Source of the DNA: Micromonospora sp. WMMD1120
GTDB taxonomy: Bacteria > Actinomycetota > Actinomycetes > Mycobacteriales > Micromonosporaceae
Assembly (NCBI RefSeq): GCF_029626235.1
Contig: NZ_JARUBO010000005.1
Span: 4,622,001 to 4,686,000, forward strand
Length of the DNA stretch: 64,000 nt
Reading direction: 5' to 3'
Shown: in pieces, positions 38,310 to 47,764 of the stretch
How positions within the stretch are numbered: the stretch's first letter is position 1
Layout of the letters: each line of letters opens with the position of its first letter
Notes under the pieces: model-generated
The model's database searches: none
The model's input: only the letters and a program-made list of their open reading frames with translations
Told to the model about the DNA's origin: nothing
Translations under genes and position numbers: made by a program

Positions 38310-39803
38310 TCAGGCGGAGTTGCGCCACTTGCGGCCGTGCCGACCGATGAGTCGGTCGGCGTCGGTCGGGCCCCAGGAGGCGGCCTCGTAGGTGGGGATC
38401 GGCGAGTGGTCCTTCGCCCAGTTGTCGATGATCGGGTCGACGATCCGCCAGCACTGCTGCACCTCGTCGCTGCGGATGAACAGCGACGCGTCACCGATCA
38501 ATGCGTCCAGGAGCAGGCGCTCGTACGCCTCCGGGGACTCCTCGGCGAACGTCTGGTCGTAGGAGAACTCCATCGTGGCGGTGCGGACCCGGAAGGAGTG
38601 GCCCGGCACCTTGGCGCCGAAGCGCAGCGAGATGCCCTCGTTCGGCTGGATGCGCAGGATCAGGGCGTCGGCGTCGAGGCCGGTGAGCTGGTCGGTCGGG
38701 ATCGGCAGGTGCGGCGGCCGCTGGAACTGTAGCGCCACCTCGGTGAGCCGGGCGGGCAGGCGCTTGCCCGTGCGCACGTAGAACGGCACCCCGGCCCAGC
38801 GCCAGTTGTCCACATTGAGCCGCATGGCGGCGTAGGTCTCGGTCCGCGACAGCGGGTCGACACCGGCCTCCTCGCGGTAGCCGGCCATCAGCTCCTCGCG
38901 GGTGCCGCCCCGGGTGTACTGCCCCCGGACCGCGGCCTCGGCGATGTCCCGGTCGGTGGGGAGCCGAATCGCCTGCAGCAGCTTCACCTTCTCGTTGCGC
39001 AGACCCTCGGCCTCGAATGAGGCCGGTGGCTCCATCAGCGCCAGCGCGAGGACCTGGAGCACGTGGTTCTGCACGATGTCCCGCATCGCGCCGGCGTCCT
39101 CGTAGAAGCCGCCGCGGCTGCCGACGCCGAGAGTCTCGGCGACGGTGATCTGCACGTGGTCGACCCAGGACCGGTCCCAGATGGGCTGGAAGATCGAGTT
39201 CGCGAAGCGCAACGCGAGCACGTTCTGGACGGTGTCCTTGCCCAGGTAGTGGTCGATGCGGAAGACCTGGTGCTCGTCGAAGGCGCCGTGCACGACAGCG
39301 TCCAGCTCGCGGGCCGTGACCAGGTCGCGCCCGTACGGCTTCTCGATGACCAGGCGCGAGAAGGAGCCTTCGCGTGGCTGGTTGAGCCCGACACCGGCCA
39401 GCCCGTTGATCACCGGCTCGAAGGCTCCGGCCGGGGTGGACAGGTAGAAGAGCCGGTTGCCGGCCGTGCCCCGCTGTGCGTCCAGCTCGTCGAGGGTCTC
39501 CACGAGCCGCTTGTAGGTCTCCGGGTCGTCGTAGCCGCCGGCGACGTACCGCACGCCGCCCTGGAGTTGACGCCTGCTGGCCAGCGTGCGTTCGCCGAGG
39601 GCGCTCTCGGCGAACTGCTCGTCGGTCATCGACGTGCGCGCGACGCCGACCACCGCGAACTGGTCCGGGAGCCGCTCGTGCCGAGCCAGGCTCTCGACCG
39701 CGGGCAGCAGCTTACGCCGGGTCAGGTCGCCGGAGGCACCGAAGATCACCAGCGTGGCCGGCGGGGCACTCCGCTCCTGGATGAGCTGAGATGCGTGGTC
39801 CAT
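38310..39803 (-). CDS. zwf: Glucose-6-phosphate 1-dehydrogenase
   Basis: Oxidises glucose 6-phosphate to 6-phosphogluconolactone with NADP, the entry step of the oxidative pentose phosphate pathway. 497 residues. The nucleotide-binding GASGDLTRRKLLPA is near residue 25, and the catalytic RIDHYLGKD is in the middle of the protein. The frame opens at GTG 39824, but GGAGGAA precedes ATG 39803 at normal spacing. It converges on metH with an 8 bp gap. The 230 bp upstream (39804-40034) shows no gene. Confidence 0.97.
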   Translation of the reverse strand: MDHASQLIQERSAPPATLVIFGASGDLTRRKLLPAVESLARHERLPDQFAVVGVARTSMTDEQFAESALGERTLASRRQLQGGVRYVAGGYDDPETYKRLVETLDELDAQRGTAGNRLFYLSTPAGAFEPVINGLAGVGLNQPREGSFSRLVIEKPYGRDLVTARELDAVVHGAFDEHQVFRIDHYLGKDTVQNVLALRFANSIFQPIWDRSWVDHVQITVAETLGVGSRGGFYEDAGAMRDIVQNHVLQVLALALMEPPASFEAEGLRNEKVKLLQAIRLPTDRDIAEAAVRGQYTRGGTREELMAGYREEAGVDPLSRTETYAAMRLNVDNWRWAGVPFYVRTGKRLPARLTEVALQFQRPPHLPIPTDQLTGLDADALILRIQPNEGISLRFGAKVPGHSFRVRTATMEFSYDQTFAEESPEAYERLLLDALIGDASLFIRSDEVQQCWRIVDPIIDNWAKDHSPIPTYEAASWGPTDADRLIGRHGRKWRNSA

Positions 39804-40034
39804 GGTCTGCGTTCCTCCGGGCACAAGGGGTGGCCACGCGGCGTGGCTCGTCGGTCACGGAGCTTGAGCGTCGCATGCCGGGCTGAGAGGTCAAGCTCTC
39901 GGTGGGCGATTCGATGCGGTCGGTCGGCGGACGGAGTTGGTGCTACGAATGATCATGCCAGGCGGCCGGCGTGGGTCAACGGGTTCATCGACGGCCGTGC
40001 CGGGAACTGCCGGCACGGCGGCGGTGGACGGTTG

Positions 40035-41816
40035 TCAGGGGCGGGTGCGGGACCGGACCCGGTCGAGCAGGACGCGACCGAGCAGGCGTACCCGGTGCCA
40101 GGCGCCGAACTGCACGGCGGCGCACCCGACGACCGCCTCGCGCAGCGTGAACACCTGCCCGGCCCGGGGGAGCAGGAGCACCCGCCAGGACGCCGCCGTC
40201 GAGCCCAGGATCTCCGCCCGGCGCTGTTGGGCGCGATAGAGCCGGCCCAGCTCAGCGACGGGCGTCGTGACGCGATGGTTGTCCCGCAGACGCCGGTGTT
40301 GGTAGGAGAGGGCGGCATGGACGTTGCCGGCCTCCAGGAACCACTCCTGGGTCTCGGCCGCCTCGGACTCCGGCCGGGAGGTGGCCGGCGTGGCGTGCCG
40401 CAGGCTCGTGGAGACGTCGGCGAGCCGCCGGAACTCGTGCAGTCCGTCGCGCTGGCGGGGCTCGGGCAACCAGCGAGCAGCCCTGCGGCCCAGGTGGCGG
40501 CCCAGCCAGCGCAGGTCGGGCACCAACCTCATGTGCTCGATGACCCGAGCCTCGGTTTCGGCGATGACCCGCAGCTCCGTCTCGTCCGAGACGCGCCGCC
40601 GCTGCCACGTCAGCCACGCGTACGCGGGCAACAGGCGGCCCTGGACCCACAGTGTCGCCCCGATGCGTTCGGTGCGGCGCAGCGACCGTGGCTGCTGCCG
40701 CCACCAGTGGCGCAGGTCGGCGTACCGGCCCTCCTCCCACATCAGGTCGGATCGGGCCAGGATCAGCTCCTCGGCGGGCACGTCAGGTTCCTCCGCCAGC
40801 AACCGACGGACCTCGGGGACGAGACCGACAGCGCGGAAGTACAGGAAGGTGGCGGCCAGCCGGCGCCGGTCGTCCACATCGATGCTGACGGCGCGCGGTG
40901 GCCGCAGGTCCGGCGCGGGAACTCGGTCGAAGCCCCAGCGGGTGGCGAGCCCGTCGAGGAGTTCAGTGGTCGGCCCGCAGAGGAACTCGACAGTGGCCCC
41001 GGCTCTGCGCAGGTGCCCGGCGAGGGCGGGCAGGGTGCCGTCCCGGTTGCCGTGCTCGACTCCGAAGACGGCGGTGGACGGTCGCGGCGTCGGTCGGTGC
41101 CAGGCGCAAGACGAGTGGTTGACCCAGTGGACGGTCCGGCCGTCCAGCGCGCCCGGCGCAAGATCGGCGACCGCGACATCCACGTCGAAGAAGTCACTGC
41201 CGCTGTAGCCCACGATGACGATCCGGCGGGCCGGCCCCCGCAGTCGGTCGACGAGCGCCGCCCGGTCGGTGTCGTCGAAGCCGCGTTCGATGCGCGCGAG
41301 GGTGGCGCCCAGGCGGGCGGGGTCCGCCCCGTCGGAGAAGGCGTTGTGGAAGTGGTGGATCTGACCGGGCAGCGGCGACCGCCCGTGCCGCTCGACGTGC
41401 GCGCGTTCGACGCACAGATCGAAATTCGCGGTGAGCTGATGCCCGCCCGCGTGCAGGTGCGCGGCGAGGAACTCGTGCACCGGATTCGGACGGGCGCCCC
41501 GCACGTCGGCAAGAATCTCCCCGACCAGGTCGGGCGTCTGCTGCGCGCCGAGCGCCGTCTCCAGCCGGGGCAACCGGGTCCGGGCCGGCTCCGCCGGGCA
41601 GATGGACCCGCGCCGCCAGCCCAGCAGTTCGTGGTACGCGAGGACGGTGTCCAGGGTGAACGGGCGGAACAGCGCCGCGAAGGCGCGCTCGGTGAGCTGC
41701 CATCCCGTCGGCAGACAGCTCGGCGCACCCCGGGAGATGCCGGCTCCGGTCCAGAAGAGAGCGTCCGCCGGGCCCGCTTCCGCCATCGTCGCGACGGCCT
41801 CCTCGAGCACGCTCAT
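40035..41816 (-). CDS. SIR2-domain protein with C-terminal helical region
   Basis: A 593-residue protein. The N-terminal about 290 residues form a SIR2 (sirtuin-type) NAD-binding domain: GAGIS at 24-28, TANFD at 129-133, His154/155 (GQIHHFHN) in place of the catalytic HG, and VGYSGSDFF near residue 205. The rest is helical with many Arg/Leu/Trp pairs and resembles a tetratricopeptide-like or sensor region. Stand-alone SIR2 proteins of this kind in bacteria are NAD+ hydrolases in antiphage systems (Thoeris ThsA, DSR, SIR2-Argonaute). Its ATG overlaps the stop of the macrodomain gene by 4 bp, so it is the last gene of a NUDIX-macro-SIR2 operon. Confidence 0.82.
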   Translation of the reverse strand: MSVLEEAVATMAEAGPADALFWTGAGISRGAPSCLPTGWQLTERAFAALFRPFTLDTVLAYHELLGWRRGSICPAEPARTRLPRLETALGAQQTPDLVGEILADVRGARPNPVHEFLAAHLHAGGHQLTANFDLCVERAHVERHGRSPLPGQIHHFHNAFSDGADPARLGATLARIERGFDDTDRAALVDRLRGPARRIVIVGYSGSDFFDVDVAVADLAPGALDGRTVHWVNHSSCAWHRPTPRPSTAVFGVEHGNRDGTLPALAGHLRRAGATVEFLCGPTTELLDGLATRWGFDRVPAPDLRPPRAVSIDVDDRRRLAATFLYFRAVGLVPEVRRLLAEEPDVPAEELILARSDLMWEEGRYADLRHWWRQQPRSLRRTERIGATLWVQGRLLPAYAWLTWQRRRVSDETELRVIAETEARVIEHMRLVPDLRWLGRHLGRRAARWLPEPRQRDGLHEFRRLADVSTSLRHATPATSRPESEAAETQEWFLEAGNVHAALSYQHRRLRDNHRVTTPVAELGRLYRAQQRRAEILGSTAASWRVLLLPRAGQVFTLREAVVGCAAVQFGAWHRVRLLGRVLLDRVRSRTRP

Positions 41817-42859
41817 GCGGGGTCGAGACCGCTGACGTCGTGATGCTCGGTCAGCACCAGTCGGACGATCTGCTCCTCCAGGTCGGTGAAGGCGAGCAGG
41901 TAGACGGTGCGTACCCGGCTGCTGGGATGCGCCCGGAAGTAGTCCAGAGCCGCCTCGACCATGATCTGGGCGGTCCGCTGCGGATCACCACCACCGTTTC
42001 CGGTGCCGAGGAGCGGCAGGACGACCGTTCGTAGCTCCTCGCCGCCGGCGTTGAGCCGGTCCATCTCGGCCAGCACGTTGCGCATGCAGCCACTGATGTC
42101 GGCGACCTGCCGGTAGCCGGTGCCCGGTGAGCCCTCCACCGAGGCGACGTGCAGGATCCGCTTGACGCTGTTGCTCTCCGCGAGCCTGCCGGAGGAGGTG
42201 GTGAAAACCGTGGCGGGGGCGACCGGAGTGCGCAGCGCCACCTCACGCAACTCGTCGTAGACCAGGTCGTCGACCAGGTTGCCGGCCGTGTCACGCCGCC
42301 CGCCCCGGTAGCGGATCGTGCCGGAGATGGTCGGCTCCGTCGGACGGGCCATCTCCATCTGGACGTTCTCCGCGTTGACCCAGACGTCGACGCCGGTGAC
42401 GTTGGAGATGTTGCCGGTGATGATGCCGAGCCGGTGCCGGCGGTCCTGCCTGATCGACGCGTGCGCTCGGGTCGTGCGTTGCAGGCGTTGGGGCTGCTGC
42501 GCGGCCTCGACGATGGTCAACCGCCGGTTCAGCCGCTCGACCTCCTGCCTGGCCTGCCGGACCTCGGCTTCGAGCGCGTCACGCTTGCCCGCGCGCGCCA
42601 ACCACTGGAAGGAGAGAGTGGTGAAGACCAGCACGAACGCGGTGGCCCCGCCGATGCTGAAGCCGAGCGCGCGACCGTCGGCGTACGACTCCGGGAAGAT
42701 GGAGAACATCAGCAACGAGACCGCGACCGCGTAGAGCAACACCGACGGCAGTTGCATCGCGGCCTGCCGGCCGGCGCGTCGCGGATCGGAGAACCACACC
42801 TGGAGCAGGATTCCGATCAGCATCAGGGCGCCCGTGACGCCGAGCAGTTGCGAGTTCAC
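41813..42859 (-). CDS. Membrane-anchored macrodomain protein
   Basis: A 348-residue protein. Three transmembrane helices (about 5-25, 38-58, 68-90) are followed by a short coiled coil (EAEVRQARQEVERLNRRL) and a cytoplasmic macrodomain (about 150-340) with LGIITGNISNVTGVDVWVNAEN and LPLLGTGNGGGDP as the ADP-ribose-binding loops. The VDVWVNAENVQMEMARP region differs from the MacroD class. It is likely a reader or hydrolase of an ADP-ribose-type nucleotide at the membrane. It starts at GTG 42859 with AGGACA upstream, overlapping the NUDIX stop (GTGA), and overlaps the SIR2 gene by 4 bp. It is the middle gene of the operon. Confidence 0.8.
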   Translation of the reverse strand: MNSQLLGVTGALMLIGILLQVWFSDPRRAGRQAAMQLPSVLLYAVAVSLLMFSIFPESYADGRALGFSIGGATAFVLVFTTLSFQWLARAGKRDALEAEVRQARQEVERLNRRLTIVEAAQQPQRLQRTTRAHASIRQDRRHRLGIITGNISNVTGVDVWVNAENVQMEMARPTEPTISGTIRYRGGRRDTAGNLVDDLVYDELREVALRTPVAPATVFTTSSGRLAESNSVKRILHVASVEGSPGTGYRQVADISGCMRNVLAEMDRLNAGGEELRTVVLPLLGTGNGGGDPQRTAQIMVEAALDYFRAHPSSRVRTVYLLAFTDLEEQIVRLVLTEHHDVSGLDPA

Positions 42860-43467
42860 CGGTGTGTCCTGTTGCGGTCCAGCCAGAACAGCCCGGTCAG
42901 GGTCTTCGCGTCCCGGATCGCGCCGCTGTCGAGCAGCTCCGCCAGGTCGCCGAGTGGCAGCACGCGGCGGGCGATGTTCTCCGCCTCGTCCGCGCGACCG
43001 CCTCCCTCGCCCACCCGCAGACTGTCGTCGACCTCCGCGTAGAAGAGGGTGACGCGCTCCGACGATCCCCCCGGCGAGGGGTAGACCGTCGAGATCCTCT
43101 CCAGGGCGCGCACGTCGTACCCGATCTCCTCCTGGATCTCGCGGCGGATGGCGGCCTCCGGCGTCTCGTCGGCGTCGACCATGCCGGCCACCAACTCCAC
43201 CAACCATCCCGACCCGTGGCCGAGGGTCGGGAACCGGAACTGCTCGACGAGGATGAGCTCCTCGCGCGCGGTGTCCACCACGACCGCTGCCACGGAATTG
43301 CCACGATCGGCGTTGACGAGGGTGACCGGCCTGCTCCAGTCGCCGGACAGGGAGCGGTCCGGCGCATAGGTGCGATATCGGAGTGTGGCTTCCCGGATGG
43401 TGAAGATCCGGGTGGTGAGGAGCACCTGCTCGGAGAAGACTTCGACGTCGCGCTGACGATCGGGCAC
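42856..43467 (-). CDS. NUDIX hydrolase, ADP-ribose pyrophosphatase-like
   Basis: A 203-residue protein with a perfect Nudix box from Gly95 to Tyr117 (GMVDADETPEAAIRREIQEE and then IGY), the Mg-binding motif of the family. The preceding ELVA and the N-terminal strand-rich domain fit the ADP-ribose pyrophosphatase subgroup, which cleaves ADP-ribose to AMP and ribose 5-phosphate. It starts at GTG 43467 with AAGGAG seven bases upstream, and is first gene of the leftward NUDIX-macro-SIR2 operon. In this context it may destroy an ADP-ribose-derived signal or recycle SIR2/TIR products. Confidence 0.88.
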   Translation of the reverse strand: MPDRQRDVEVFSEQVLLTTRIFTIREATLRYRTYAPDRSLSGDWSRPVTLVNADRGNSVAAVVVDTAREELILVEQFRFPTLGHGSGWLVELVAGMVDADETPEAAIRREIQEEIGYDVRALERISTVYPSPGGSSERVTLFYAEVDDSLRVGEGGGRADEAENIARRVLPLGDLAELLDSGAIRDAKTLTGLFWLDRNRTHR

Positions 43468-43599
43468 GTTGCCGCTCCTTGATCGAACAAACGCCCGCTT
43501 TCCTCACGAAGCGCGGCGCTTAACCTAAGCATAACTCCGAATCCAACGTCGTTGATGTTGCGGCGATCTGTCGGAAGATGGCGGCAAAGGGGACCACAA
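43468..43599. promoter_or_regulatory. Divergent promoter region of the NAD+/ADP-ribose island
   Basis: 132 bp separate the NUDIX and TIR genes. The middle (43520-43545) is the AT-richest part, with TTAACCTAAGCATAACT, and contains a short inverted repeat GCTTA-acc-TAAGC at 43518-43530. Both operons probably start here. I cannot place exact promoter boxes. Confidence 0.45.
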
Positions 43600-45729
43600 A
43601 TGCTCGACGAGCGACCGGCGGCCTACTTCAGTCACAGCTACGACGTCCTGGACCGGCGGGTCACCGACTTCTTTTTGGAGACGCTGTCGGAGCGGTTCGC
43701 GCTCGCCGTCGATCCGCGCTCCGCGACCCTGTCCACGATGCACCTTGAGTTGATGATGCGACGAACCGCCTGTTTCGTCGCTGTGGTCACCCGCCGGGAA
43801 AACCAACCACAGTATCGTTGTTCGCCATTCGCCGTACACGAGTACGGCCTGGCGGTGCTGACAAACCGGCCGAGGCTGGTGATTCCGGAGATCAACATTC
43901 CGGCACGCCATTTTATTGGCGCGGACCTGGCCCGTCCGTTCAACCGCAATCGGCTCGCCGCGTACCGGATGCCCGTGGAGGCGCTCGACGAGCTGGTGGC
44001 CCGCGCCCGGGAACACGCGGACGAGGTGGACCGACCGCTGGGCGCCGCCGCGCTCATGCTCCCACCCACACCGGAGTACGCGGCGGCCGAACCGGAGCTG
44101 CGCCGGCTCATCTCGCAGGCCGGTTGGCAGGTGGACAACATCTCCGAGGCGCTGCTGCGCGACGAGGTCGACGCCGCCGGAGCGGCGACACTGCTGGATC
44201 GGTACGACTTCGTCCTCCTCGACGTCCTGGACCCACGGACCCCGTCCTGGGTGTTGCCGTTCCTACAGGCCCGTGGCGTGCCGATGGTCCGGCTGGTGTG
44301 CCACCGCGCCGACGACCACGCGATCCGGCAACTGCCTCGGCTCGCCGTCAGCCAGGCGCTACAGGCGTCCAGCGCGGTCAACCGACACGCCATCTGGTGG
44401 TCCGGGCTGGACGTGCTGCTGCCGGAGCTGGGCCGGGAGATCGGTCGGTTGCAGATGCCCCGGCTCCAGTTCGCCGGCCTACCGGAGGCCCGCCGGTATG
44501 TCTGGAGCCTCGGCCGGGACCAGGGCCCGGTCTTCCTCAGCAGCGCCCAGGGCGACAACGACCTCGCCCAACTGATCGCCCAGGAACTGGACCTGCGCAA
44601 CGTCGAGCACTTCCACTACCTGTTCAACAGCGACCTACCGCGGGGCAAGGCGTGGGAGCACCGCCTGCTCGCCAAGGTCGGTGAGTGCCGGATCTTCGTG
44701 CCGCTGGTGAGCCGGCACTATCTGCACAGCGCGTGGTGCAGGAAGGAGATGGACATCGCGCTGGAGTTGAGTGGTCAGGGGCGGATGCGGGTGTTGCCGT
44801 ACTTCCTCGACCACGATGCCGGCGCCACAGTGCCGATCCAGGGCACCTCGATGATGCACCTGAACGCGGCCGCACGGGTCCGGCGCGTCGTCGACGACGT
44901 GGATCGGGCGCTCACCGACCTGACCGACCGGCGGCACCGTCCGCGCATCGAGATCACCGTGGCGGGTGGGCGGACGGCGCCGGACGTGGACGTGGTGGTG
45001 CTCGCCACCGGCCCGACGGAGTACGCGGCGGCGGCCCGCACGCTGCGGGATCCGTCCCCGGTGGTCGGCACGGCCGAGCATCCCAACCGCTTCGACTGGC
45101 TCGCCGGCACTGTCGCCCGCCAGCAGGGCAGCGGCTACCAACTGGTGCTCTGCCGGGCCGGCGCGGACGGCGGCCGGGAAGCGTTGCGGGCCGCCGTCGA
45201 GGCGTTCGGGCCCGAACACGTCGTGCTGCTCGGCGCCGCGTCGGCGTTGGTGCCGGCCGGCGTGGTGGTGGCCGACCGGATCTGCGGCTTCCACAGGTTC
45301 AGCGTCGACAGCTCGTTCGTGCCCAGCCCGCACCGGGACTACCCGACCGATCCCGGTGTCGCGGCGTCGGCGGAGGGGCTGCCGTCGGTGGTACGGGGAA
45401 CAGTGGCCGTCGGTGACGAGGTGGTGCCCGCGCCGGACGCCCCCGCCTTCGCTCGGGTGCTGAACACGTGGCCCGACACGGTGGCGGTGGGCGTGCTGTC
45501 GGTGGACACCGTCGAGCAGTTGGAGGACTTCCGGGCGTACGGTCGGATCAACCACTTCAGCGCTGTCGTCGGCATCGCGCCGCCCGACGCGGGCGATGCC
45601 GCCCGCGCGGCGGCGGCAGAGCACGCATTCACCGTCGTCAGCCGGCTAGTCTCGGCGCACTGGCCGCGACCGCCGCGCACCGACGCGGCAGACGAGGGGG
45701 CATCCGGTGTGGCAGCCACAGCCGATTGA
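43600..45729 (+). CDS. TIR-domain protein fused to a nucleoside-phosphorylase-like domain
   Basis: A 709-residue three-part protein. Residues 1-110 (AAYFSHSYDVLDRRVTDFF, FAVHEYGLAVL) look like a degenerate TIR or a related nucleotide-binding fold. Residues about 305-435 are a clear TIR domain: VFLSSAQGDNDLAQLIAQ, a conserved ECRIFVPLVSRHYLHSAWCRKE with Glu383 in the position of the NADase catalytic glutamate, and a final RVLPYF strand. Residues about 450-700 resemble the MTA/SAH nucleosidase and purine nucleoside phosphorylase fold (VVVLATGPTEY, VVLLGAASALVPAGVVVADRI). TIR domains cleave NAD+ or make cyclic ADP-ribose signals. ATG 43600 is preferred (AAGGGGA upstream) over TTG 43552. The RyR gene overlaps its end by 23 bp. 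Confidence 0.8.
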   Translation: MLDERPAAYFSHSYDVLDRRVTDFFLETLSERFALAVDPRSATLSTMHLELMMRRTACFVAVVTRRENQPQYRCSPFAVHEYGLAVLTNRPRLVIPEINIPARHFIGADLARPFNRNRLAAYRMPVEALDELVARAREHADEVDRPLGAAALMLPPTPEYAAAEPELRRLISQAGWQVDNISEALLRDEVDAAGAATLLDRYDFVLLDVLDPRTPSWVLPFLQARGVPMVRLVCHRADDHAIRQLPRLAVSQALQASSAVNRHAIWWSGLDVLLPELGREIGRLQMPRLQFAGLPEARRYVWSLGRDQGPVFLSSAQGDNDLAQLIAQELDLRNVEHFHYLFNSDLPRGKAWEHRLLAKVGECRIFVPLVSRHYLHSAWCRKEMDIALELSGQGRMRVLPYFLDHDAGATVPIQGTSMMHLNAAARVRRVVDDVDRALTDLTDRRHRPRIEITVAGGRTAPDVDVVVLATGPTEYAAAARTLRDPSPVVGTAEHPNRFDWLAGTVARQQGSGYQLVLCRAGADGGREALRAAVEAFGPEHVVLLGAASALVPAGVVVADRICGFHRFSVDSSFVPSPHRDYPTDPGVAASAEGLPSVVRGTVAVGDEVVPAPDAPAFARVLNTWPDTVAVGVLSVDTVEQLEDFRAYGRINHFSAVVGIAPPDAGDAARAAAAEHAFTVVSRLVSAHWPRPPRTDAADEGASGVAATAD

Positions 45730-45991
45730 CACCGGCGGCGTCGAGGTGCCGCAGGCGGTGCGGGGGGAACAGGAGACACTCGCCCGCCAGGCGCACGACA
45801 TCTGGGCCGCGAAACGGCTCGCGGACGGCTGGAGGTACGGCGAGCGCCGCGACGACGCCGAGAAGACCCACCCGAACCTGGTCGCCTACGAGGAGCTGGA
45901 CGAGAACGACAAGTCCTACGACCGGGAGCTGATCGACGGGACCATCCGGCTCCTGATCAAGCTGGGCTTCCGGATCGAGCGCGACACCTGA
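45707..45991 (+). CDS. RyR-domain protein
   Basis: A 94-residue protein that is almost entirely one RyR (ryanodine receptor) domain: LARQAHDIWAAKRLADGWRYG, then HPNLVAYEELDENDKSYDREL and a closing LLIKLGFRI helix, read as LARQAHDIWAAKRL, ADGWRYG, HPNLVAYEELDENDK and SYDREL. Bacterial RyR domains have been proposed, from comparative genomics, to sense NAD-derived or other nucleotide signals. It starts at GTG 45707 behind AGGGGG and overlaps the TIR gene by 23 bp, so the two are translationally coupled. It would be the sensor or effector partner of the TIR protein. Function inferred from context only. Confidence 0.82.
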   Translation: MWQPQPIDTGGVEVPQAVRGEQETLARQAHDIWAAKRLADGWRYGERRDDAEKTHPNLVAYEELDENDKSYDRELIDGTIRLLIKLGFRIERDT

Positions 45992-46062
45992 ACAACTCCG
46001 TCAGTCGAGGGCAGGTGTCGGTGCCGTTACGTCGGTCGGCGCCGCCGAGACGGCCGTCCATG

Positions 46063-46094
46063 GGAGTGCCCCTGCGTGAATGCAGGGGCACTCC
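46063..46094. terminator. Terminator at the end of the island
   Basis: A perfect 13 bp inverted repeat (46063-46075 with 46082-46094) with a GTGAAT loop lies 70 bp after the RyR stop. It would stop rightward transcription of the island and leftward transcription of the pseudogene. Confidence 0.8.
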
Positions 46095-46134
46095 TTGACG
46101 CTGTGGTTGTTGACCGCCGCATGACCGGGTACGG

Positions 46135-47764
46135 CTATGGCAGCCACCACGGTGCGAAGTACGGCGCCGACGCTCCCTCGGTCGAGAAGGACCACCCGCC
46201 CGCCGGCGCGCTCTGCAGCCTGACGACGACGTTCGCGACGTACGTCGAGCTGACCGGGCGGAAGTCGACCTCGCTGTACCAGGGCCCCCCGTTCGGGGCG
46301 CAGAAGTCCGACGCGTTGTCGGTGTAGGTCACCACCACACCGTTCTGGTAGGTGACGACCGGCCACGCTGAGGCAGAGGGCGACGCTGAGGTGGGTGCAG
46401 GCCAGGACATCGTCCTGACCGGCACTGGTCGCGGCGGCGAGCGCCTGCCGTGCGCATGCGGTGGCGGCGTCGGTGTCGCCGGCCAGCAGGTGCGCGTGGG
46501 CGGTCCAGGCGAGCAGCAGCGCCCGATCGGTGAGCGGGGCGGATCGGGCGAGTGGCCGGTCGAGGATCGCCAGGGCCGCGCGGGCGTCACCCCGCTGGTA
46601 GTGGATCCGGCCCAACCGCCAGGCGACGCCGGCGTCCCAGGCATCCTCGGCGACGGCGTCGTACTCGCGGGTGGCCGCGCCGAGGTCGCCGAGGGTGCGC
46701 AACGCGTCGCCGAGCAGCAGACGCAGCCGGCGGCTGCGCTGCCGTTCCGGCAGCATGCGGACGAGCTCGGCCACCGCGGTGCAGCGACCTGCCGCGATCA
46801 TCCGATCGCCGTACGCGTCGAGCACCCGGGCGCTTGCCGCATGGTCCCTGGCCCGCAGGTACTCCCGGGCCGCGGCGACCGGCGGTCCGTGCTCGTCGTA
46901 CCAGTCTGCCGCGGCGGCGGCCGTGTCGCGGAGCTGATCGGCGGTCGGTGCCCGGTGTCCGTGCCGGGCGGTCTCGACGACGATCGGCACGAAGAGTTCT
47001 TCGGGTGCCGGTGCGCCCGGCCCGGCCGCGGCCCAGGCCGTGCGGGTCAGCAGGCCGGTGCGGCGGAGCCGGTCGATGACGCGCGGGGCGCCGCGGTGGC
47101 CGAGCGCACGGCACAGCCCCACACTCACCGGCGCCAACGCACCGACCTGACGCAGCAGCCGGTTCGCGTCCGCCGGTTGCGCGGCCAGCACCTCGTCGGC
47201 GACGTACCGCGCGAGCGGCCCACCTGGCTCGCTGAGGATCGGGGCGAGCGGCCCGGGCGGCACCCCACCCAGCCGCAGGGTCTCGGCGGACAGGTGGACG
47301 AGCGCCGGCCAGCCGCCGGTCGCCGCGTACAGCCGGTCGGCAAGGTCCGGTGTGGAGAGGCCGTACTCCTCGGCGATCAGGTCGGCGATCCGTTGCGGGG
47401 GGAGCGCCAGGTCGGCCGGGCCCACCTCGGTCCAGAGGCCGCTGCCGAGCAGGCGCGTGGTCGGTGCGGACAGCGGCCACCGCGAGGCGAGGATGACGGT
47501 GACGTCGTCCGCCCACCGCGCGACCTCCTCGACTAGGAGGTGCAGCTGCTCCGCCGAGGTCGGCGGCAGGTCGTCGACCACGACCAGACGGTCGCCGGCC
47601 GCGACGGCGTCGGCGACGAGCTGGCGTACGGGTGCGTCGTCCCCTCGGCACCAGCGGGCGCCCGCAGGAGGAAACCAGCGGCGCAGCGCGGTGGTCTTGC
47701 CGTATCCGGCGGCGGCCACGACGCAGCAGACTCCCCGCTGGTGACCTGCCCGTAACGGATGCAC
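46135..47764 (-). pseudogene. Truncated LuxR/MalT-type regulator joined to the tail of a secreted protein
   Basis: From 47764 to about 46370 the frame encodes a STAND ATPase regulator: Walker A AGYGKTTALRRW near residue 20, Walker B RLVVVDDLPPTS, then tetratricopeptide-like helices (LLLGDALRTLGDLGAA, LLLAWTAHAHLLAGDTDAA). It stops being coherent at about 46370, and the LuxR helix-turn-helix is absent. From there, in another minus-strand frame, the sequence is the C-terminal about 80 residues of a different protein (VVTYQNGVVVTYTDNASDF ... GWSFSTEGASAPYFAPWW) ending at 46135. Two unrelated genes were therefore joined by a deletion. Start GTG 47764; codon 4 is TTA. Confidence 0.7.

Follow-up and report, generated by a model that had tools for sequence, protein, structure and literature searches.

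A five-gene TIR, RyR, NUDIX, macro-domain and SIR2 block in Micromonospora as a candidate mobile NAD+-based antiphage module

We analysed a 64,000-nucleotide window of the Micromonospora sp. WMMD1120 genome (contig NZ_JARUBO010000005.1, positions 4,622,001 to 4,686,000 of the forward strand), in which five adjacent genes encode a SIR2-type protein, a membrane-anchored macro-domain protein, a NUDIX hydrolase, a TIR protein and a stand-alone RyR-domain protein (Table 1; positions are those of the window). Judged from sequence, the five genes are one unit, in which a conserved promoter region separates two divergent operon-like groups, and the distribution of the block suggests a self-contained, horizontally moving module. 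Our assessment is evenly balanced as to whether this module is an antiphage system based on nicotinamide adenine dinucleotide (NAD+), in which TIR signalling would be joined to a SIR2 effector in the manner of Thoeris and DSR.

Table 1. Features of the five-gene block, in window coordinates.
Feature	Position	Strand	Description and evidence
SIR2-type NADase-like protein	40035..41816	-	593 aa; SIR2 fold 1-296 and helical TPR-like C-terminal half 316-591; motifs, Foldseek
Membrane-anchored macro-domain protein	41813..42859	-	348 aa; macro domain (about 145-340) preceded by three hydrophobic stretches; Pfam
NUDIX hydrolase, YffH/AdpP (ADP-ribose diphosphatase-like) subfamily	42856..43467	-	Nudix box at residue 95 intact; Pfam, NCBIfam
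Divergent promoter region	43468..43599	.	132 bp; core CGGCGnTTAACCTnAGCATAACTCCG and block GTCGTTGATGTTG, kept in four copies
TIR protein	43600..45729	+	709 aa; N-terminal alpha/beta segments, TIR, degenerate MTAN/PNP-like domain
Stand-alone RyR-domain protein	45707..45991	+	94 aa; 23-bp overlap with the TIR gene; Pfam

The coordinates and strands given for these genes in a first-pass annotation of the window held in a check of the open reading frames (ORFs), as did the overlaps (4 bp at both junctions of the minus-strand NUDIX–macro–SIR2 group, 23 bp in the plus-strand TIR–RyR group) and the 132-bp gap between the divergent groups. The family assignments were also borne out, by Pfam for the macro, NUDIX, TIR and RyR proteins and by motifs, the SIR2_2 domain of relatives and a structure model for SIR2, and the proposed NAD+/ADP-ribose theme of the locus is supported. 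A strong terminator that the same annotation placed at the right end was not recovered: the hairpin there (about 46062-46095; z score of -6.1 for 46050-46110) has no U-run, is absent from the list produced by a terminator scan and sits in chromosomal flank that is also present in genome G105, i.e. outside the module. A search of 39500-46500 against Rfam at the gathering threshold found nothing.

We sampled 151 Micromonospora genomes, namely that of the window and 150 taken evenly from a larger group, and four of them (G000, G006, G012 and G064) have the same five-gene neighbourhood. These four are also the only genomes with full-length TIR matches, with SIR2 matches and with strong RyR matches (at least 100 bits); another 52 have weaker matches to the TIR domain. 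Gene order is identical in the four copies, and each lies at a different chromosomal site with different flanks. A blastn comparison of window positions 30001-56000 with 20 kb of sequence around each of the other three copies gave a single match for each, running from 40039 or 40048 to 45988 at 90.2, 88.7 or 86.0% identity, and beyond this 5.95-kb block nothing of 150 bp or more was matched at E 1e-20. Other genomes match the window's flanks up to 39995-40005 on the left and from 46062 onwards on the right, so the module ends no more than about 70 bp beyond its outer stop codons. Both the 23-bp overlap and the macro–SIR2 overlap are kept in all three other copies, and the NUDIX–macro overlap was seen in two, the third having been merged by the gene caller. 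The divergent region measures 130-134 bp in the four copies; conserved within it are a 26-bp core, in which two positions vary, and another block 12-13 bp long. Ratios of nonsynonymous to synonymous substitution (dN/dS; Nei-Gojobori, six pairs per gene) lie between 0.13 and 0.42 in each of the five genes, a sign of purifying selection, and thus all five proteins have been kept functional. In the protein database, a TIR relative at 83% lies in a contig labelled Actinoplanes and a SIR2 relative at 84% in M. haikouensis.

The flank comparison revealed no clean empty site in other genomes. The left flank (zwf) runs to 39995-40005 in G002, G108 and G075, the right flank begins at 46062 (G105) or 46123 (G133), and the two sit in different neighbourhoods in those genomes. 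None of the five genes is a transposase or integrase, the module ends not having been searched for repeats. Viral contigs gave pattern matches with no SIR2, macro or TIR relative confirmed; plasmids held no SIR2 or TIR relatives and, for macro, weak pieces only, in 16 Streptomyces clavuligerus records; and phage records, in which SIR2 and TIR were not searched, held no macro relative.

The TIR protein consists of two N-terminal alpha/beta segments (1-290), a TIR domain (about 305-440) and a degenerate MTAN/PNP-like domain (460-690). The first-pass name, TIR-phosphorylase, stands in its first half: TIR_2 matches at 3e-14 (54 bits, over the Pfam cut-off), further profile matches reach the CRISPR-associated TIR protein Cat1 (3e-10) and plant RPS4 (1.5e-7), and Glu383, in WCRKE, is invariant in 9/9 aligned sequences; we take it to be the catalytic glutamate. 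The second half of the name does not hold, since the 460-690 part has the MTAN/PNP nucleosidase fold in degenerate form, with PNP_UDP_1 at 6e-4, below cut-off. MTAN nucleosidases have a catalytic Glu in EMEx and Asp in ISD; these motifs are replaced here (GVLS / GIAP in P0004) and retained as EMEx and SD in P0010-P0012, and the domain has probably lost its activity. The structure matches listed for the TIR protein span the PNP part only and thus barely probe the N-terminal folds. An N-terminal segment was considered as a second TIR domain and not retained, the match (44 columns, Glu81 over Glu383, E 0.0015, probability 17%) being suggestive only. PADLOC-DB 2.0.0 gave only weak ThsB and SAVED-TIR matches. 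Among 394 genomes of the class, the TIR profile was matched at full length in two (G000, G012), the other 33 matching genomes carrying the C-terminal PNP-type part. Among 330 genomes of the family it matched 34, with full length in G000, G012, G006 and G729 and coverage of 5-485 in G560; the TIR relatives of G560 and G055 have no PNP part.

For the SIR2 protein, Pfam returned no usable match (only PriCT_1 at 0.15) and PADLOC-DB no family at E<=1. The protein carries the motifs GAGIS (24), TANFD (129), HFH (155) and GYSGSD (203), and the TANFD asparagine and both HFH histidines are among the invariant columns in an alignment of 23 relatives. SIR2_2 is the precomputed Pfam domain of two of the 55 listed relatives (P0052, P0058). 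The predicted structure (pLDDT 90.6) finds DSR2 as its best Foldseek matches (ranks 1-41), and residues 316-591 are predicted to be all helical and TPR-like. The SIR2 profile matched 6/296 class genomes, two of them from the module's own genus, and 15/330 family genomes, where the match in G549 is full length, as are those in the three module genomes sampled there.

The RyR protein matches PF02026 at 1.5e-29 (102.5 bits against a cut-off of 27.4) and the bacterial structure 3nrt at 6e-25; no PADLOC-DB family matched it. Only the four module genomes have this strong stand-alone type, with weaker RyR domains (<=56 bits) in 45 further genomes of the 151. A search of 50,697 phage records also found RyR relatives in 56, two of which cover at least 80% of the query. 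A 2026 preprint (PMC13232231, cited throughout from the part of its text available) reports that the phage enzyme RyDEP hydrolyses 2'/3'cADPR, a cyclic ADP-ribose (cADPR) signal, with H75, W78, H100 and D117 as ligand or catalytic residues; its authors state that no enzyme of this kind was known before, and that eight more phage RyR homologues were tested, six of which bind the signals. H30, W33, H55 and D72 of the module protein correspond to these four residues with identical spacing (from published residue numbers; the RyDEP sequence was not aligned). The first-pass annotation had cast RyR as a sensor. The family is correct, but a binder or hydrolase fits better than a channel-type sensor, because the phage RyR-domain proteins act in this way and the residues match. 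Since the RyR domain is translated together with a bacterial TIR enzyme, its ligand would be the TIR product. In view of the four shared residues, RyR probably binds or removes the TIR-made signal.

The macro protein (Pfam Macro 9e-7, over cut-off) belongs to a family marked by the pattern DVWVNxEN, and its hydrophobic stretches start at residues 5, 37 and 64; in PADLOC-DB it matched only JAB (0.04) at E<=1, and whether that library holds a transmembrane macro (TM-macro) ThsA model was unchecked. The NUDIX protein matches Pfam at 7e-18 and NCBIfam TIGR00052 (YffH/AdpP) at 1.5e-32, both over cut-off, and PDC-S07 of PADLOC-DB at 5e-8. A DVWVNxEN pattern scan of the genome collection returned 69 loci from many phyla. 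NUDIX lies directly upstream of macro in six of these (L053, L059, L060, L067, L068, L098), none with a SIR2-profile match, more distant SIR2 proteins being possible; NUDIX and macro are fused in L089, L092 and P0099, and TIR and macro in P0097. We compared 68 near and 52 far (control) genes of 35 representatives (65% identity clustering; genes of at least 100 aa; simple gene caller), to which loci with short flanks contribute fewer genes. NUDIX was the commonest family among nearest genes (7/68), the next families shown reaching 3 and PNP 2/68; among far genes it was not one of the 25 families shown, the lowest count shown being 2. SIR2_2 was not among the nearest-neighbour families shown, and we claim no SIR2 enrichment. 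Pfam identified SIR2 with STAND in L032 (STAND just under cut-off) and L035, SIR2_2 in L043 and L086, TIR with FGE-sulfatase in L057, PNP in L046 and L063, and CHAT in L056 and L080. Among the 30 neighbours scanned, several are clearly unrelated (phosphoenolpyruvate carboxykinase, polyphosphate kinase, UvrD, a ribonucleotide reductase subunit) and others have no family. The NUDIX–macro link is clear; the other macro-neighbour links are suggestive.

Individual macro loci showed further arrangements. In a member of the Desulfobacterales (L074:5026-7670), a TIR-NUDIX fusion gene and the macro gene next to it overlap in the gene calls; here the module's themes recur independently in condensed form. 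In a member of the Verrucomicrobiaceae (L065:9434-13502), the macro gene is followed by a TrkA_N-RyR gene, and in a metagenome-assembled genome of the Mycobacteriaceae (L044:6297-8278) it overlaps a RES-domain gene by 4 bp; RES toxins degrade NAD+. In L076 (9302-11839), the one locus scanned from a Hyphomonas-type group of 14 loci clustering together, a ribonucleotide reductase small subunit gene lies 3' of macro, and a housekeeping role of this macro branch is possible. In Micromonospora genome G101 (L146:4013-7078), a TM-macro gene has nearby, on the opposite strand, a gene for a PNP-domain protein that contains three lipoprotein_Ltp stretches.

These neighbourhoods bear on an alternative in which RyR is a receptor or effector subunit, macro and NUDIX shield the uninfected cell by binding and degrading ADP-ribose-type signals, and killing falls to the SIR2 or TIR NADase. 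Such an assignment would fit the rank of NUDIX among macro neighbours, the TrkA_N-RyR fusion of L065 and the binding of adenine ligands by RyR R12 domains (PMC13232231). We nevertheless think it improbable, as the module RyR has just 94 aa and is a single domain without any output domain, and the tested RyR-domain proteins of phages were sinks or a hydrolase, according to the same part of that preprint.

Our preferred reading of the module as a TIR-signalling, SIR2-effector system takes the single activities from the protein families and from what is known of Thoeris and DSR2; how these activities are wired together is what we infer. The N-terminal and dead-nucleosidase domains of the TIR protein would sense infection, and the protein would convert NAD+ to an ADP-ribose-type signal, such as a cyclic ADP-ribose isomer or a relative. 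This signal would activate the SIR2-TPR protein, which would destroy NAD+ and halt the infected cell. The TM-macro protein could act as a second, membrane-located receptor or effector in the fashion of macro-type Thoeris, whereas RyR, translated with TIR, might bind or hydrolyse the signal and so set a threshold or end the response, and NUDIX may cleave free ADP-ribose remaining after NAD+ breakdown. More tentatively, the RyR of the TIR operon could be the system's own off-switch, a signal hydrolase or sponge coupled through the shared promoter to the SIR2-TPR NADase and the membrane macro receptor, and phage RyDEP, perhaps with animal RyR R12, could descend from bacterial regulators of TIR signalling. 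If true, the module would reveal how bacteria themselves bind or turn off stable alarm signals of the cADPR type, it would join TIR, SIR2 and macro-domain immunity in one transferable unit of 6 kb from a genus not known to be pathogenic, and the RyR domain used by phages would have a host-side origin.

Several findings weigh against this antiphage model. The block is rare (4/151 in the genus; full-length TIR in 2/394 class genomes). The macro gene occurs in seven of the 151 genomes, and the three beyond the module genomes (G101, G105, G116) carry it without full-length TIR, SIR2 or strong RyR. RyR domains are generally common in Micromonospora (48/151 genomes over cut-off), and the RyR partner of TIR-PNP in a locus of another genus (L170:10950-11240) has Met at the H55 position; the ligand residues are thus not universally conserved. 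None of the eight further phage RyR homologues is reported to cleave the signals in the part of PMC13232231 cited. The SIR2 protein shows, by Pfam and structure model, no SLOG domain with which it could sense a cADPR signal. TIR_2 was found in 3/52 far control genes, indicating that not every macro-neighbour association is specific. Finally, the module is a composite whose arms also occur apart and may act separately: L170 holds a TIR–RyR pair with no other arm, and full-length SIR2 relatives in G549 and G263 come without matches to the other four genes.

The genomic surroundings count against an antiphage role as well, in that Pfam identified no known defence gene in the 20 flank genes scanned at the four sites (10/37 ORFs around the other three copies and 10 window genes; PADLOC was not run on flanks). 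These genes are ordinary by Pfam (transporters, glycosidases, a kinase, methionine synthase, glucose-6-phosphate dehydrogenase, lipases, regulators including one BTAD/NB-ARC and one weak nSTAND, and others), and the enrichment in defence islands that had been envisaged was not seen; two of them carry STAND/NB-ARC-type domains. A housekeeping function in NAD+ salvage or ADP-ribose detoxification, with no link to phage, would suit these metabolic, transport and regulatory flanks, and NUDIX ADP-ribose hydrolases and macro domains are ordinary ADP-ribose enzymes. It is nonetheless very improbable: full-length TIR and SIR2 were not found in 147/151 genus genomes, the copies occupy four different sites, and the module's SIR2 and TIR domains are similar to antiphage NADases. 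Two flanking genes of the window are of separate interest. The glucose-6-phosphate dehydrogenase gene at 38310-39824 (zwf) is 93-96% identical in 6/24 searched genomes, with a second match at about 66-69% in 24/24, and is apparently a sporadically distributed paralogue. The gene at 46001-47764, weakly like an nSTAND-NTPase/TPR regulator, lies at a rearrangement point, because in G105 and G133 about 3.2 kb separates the flank 46062-46360 from the gene body that starts at 46358.

The separate occurrence of the arms raises the rival to which we grant the largest, still minority, share: two independent conflict systems side by side. TIR–RyR would be a toxic NADase with its product mop, much like a toxin–antitoxin pair, next to NUDIX–macro–SIR2, and the promoter would be shared since joint inheritance pays. 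TIR–RyR stands without the other arm in another genus (L170; G729, where the full-length TIR-PNP relative overlaps a RyR gene 3' of it, with no SIR2, macro or NUDIX matches in 19.5 kb); SIR2 occurs without macro, NUDIX, TIR or RyR matches in L179 and L160; and NUDIX–macro is found in other phyla, the six loci named above showing no SIR2-profile match, with distant SIR2 proteins again being possible. Against independence, both arms, the same divergent layout and the promoter core are conserved in 4/4 Micromonospora copies, and 0/151 genus genomes have full-length TIR, SIR2 or strong RyR lacking the other two.

The combination was proposed not to be a named system, and no match naming such a system appeared in PADLOC-DB 2.0.0 or NCBIfam. 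Literature screened by title and abstract start contained no description of the five-gene set, although a 2025 preprint surveying TIR systems may already contain it, and RyR is not mentioned in the available parts of PMC9503650 and PMC8195603. Macro-type Thoeris is also labelled type II. A membrane-anchored macro domain beside TIR is not in itself new: macro-type Thoeris, with a TM-macro ThsA and a TIR ThsB, is a precedent in the available part of PMC11204291. The module resembles it in having a TIR protein and a membrane-anchored macro domain at one locus, a likeness of architecture and not of direct comparison with ThsA. It differs from what that part describes in its SIR2-TPR, NUDIX and RyR proteins and in the extra N-terminal and PNP-like domains of its TIR protein, and no PADLOC ThsA model matches the macro protein (the presence of a TM-macro model being unchecked). 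As in Thoeris of any type, where the effector responds to a TIR product, the TIR protein has its presumed catalytic glutamate (Glu383 in WCRKE). Type I Thoeris pairs a SIR2-SLOG ThsA with a TIR ThsB; in the module SIR2 no SLOG was seen and the C-terminal half is all-helical and TPR-like. The module would work like Thoeris but is not type I, because it has no SLOG domain. The predicted SIR2 fold and helical C-terminal region recall DSR2 (Foldseek ranks 1-41), which phage tail tube protein activates, although the module protein has 593 aa rather than about 1000, shares about 10% identity and stands in an operon with macro and NUDIX. In the Streptomyces loci L032 and L035, a SIR2_2 protein likewise adjoins a TM-macro gene of the same family, but SIR2 is fused there to a STAND-like NTPase, with no TIR, NUDIX or RyR profile matches; we take these SIR2-STAND proteins to be Avs5-like. 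With RyDEP and the other phage RyR evasion proteins, as described in the available part of PMC13232231, the module RyR shares PF02026 and the equivalents of H75, W78, H100 and D117, whereas it is bacterial and lies in a TIR operon.

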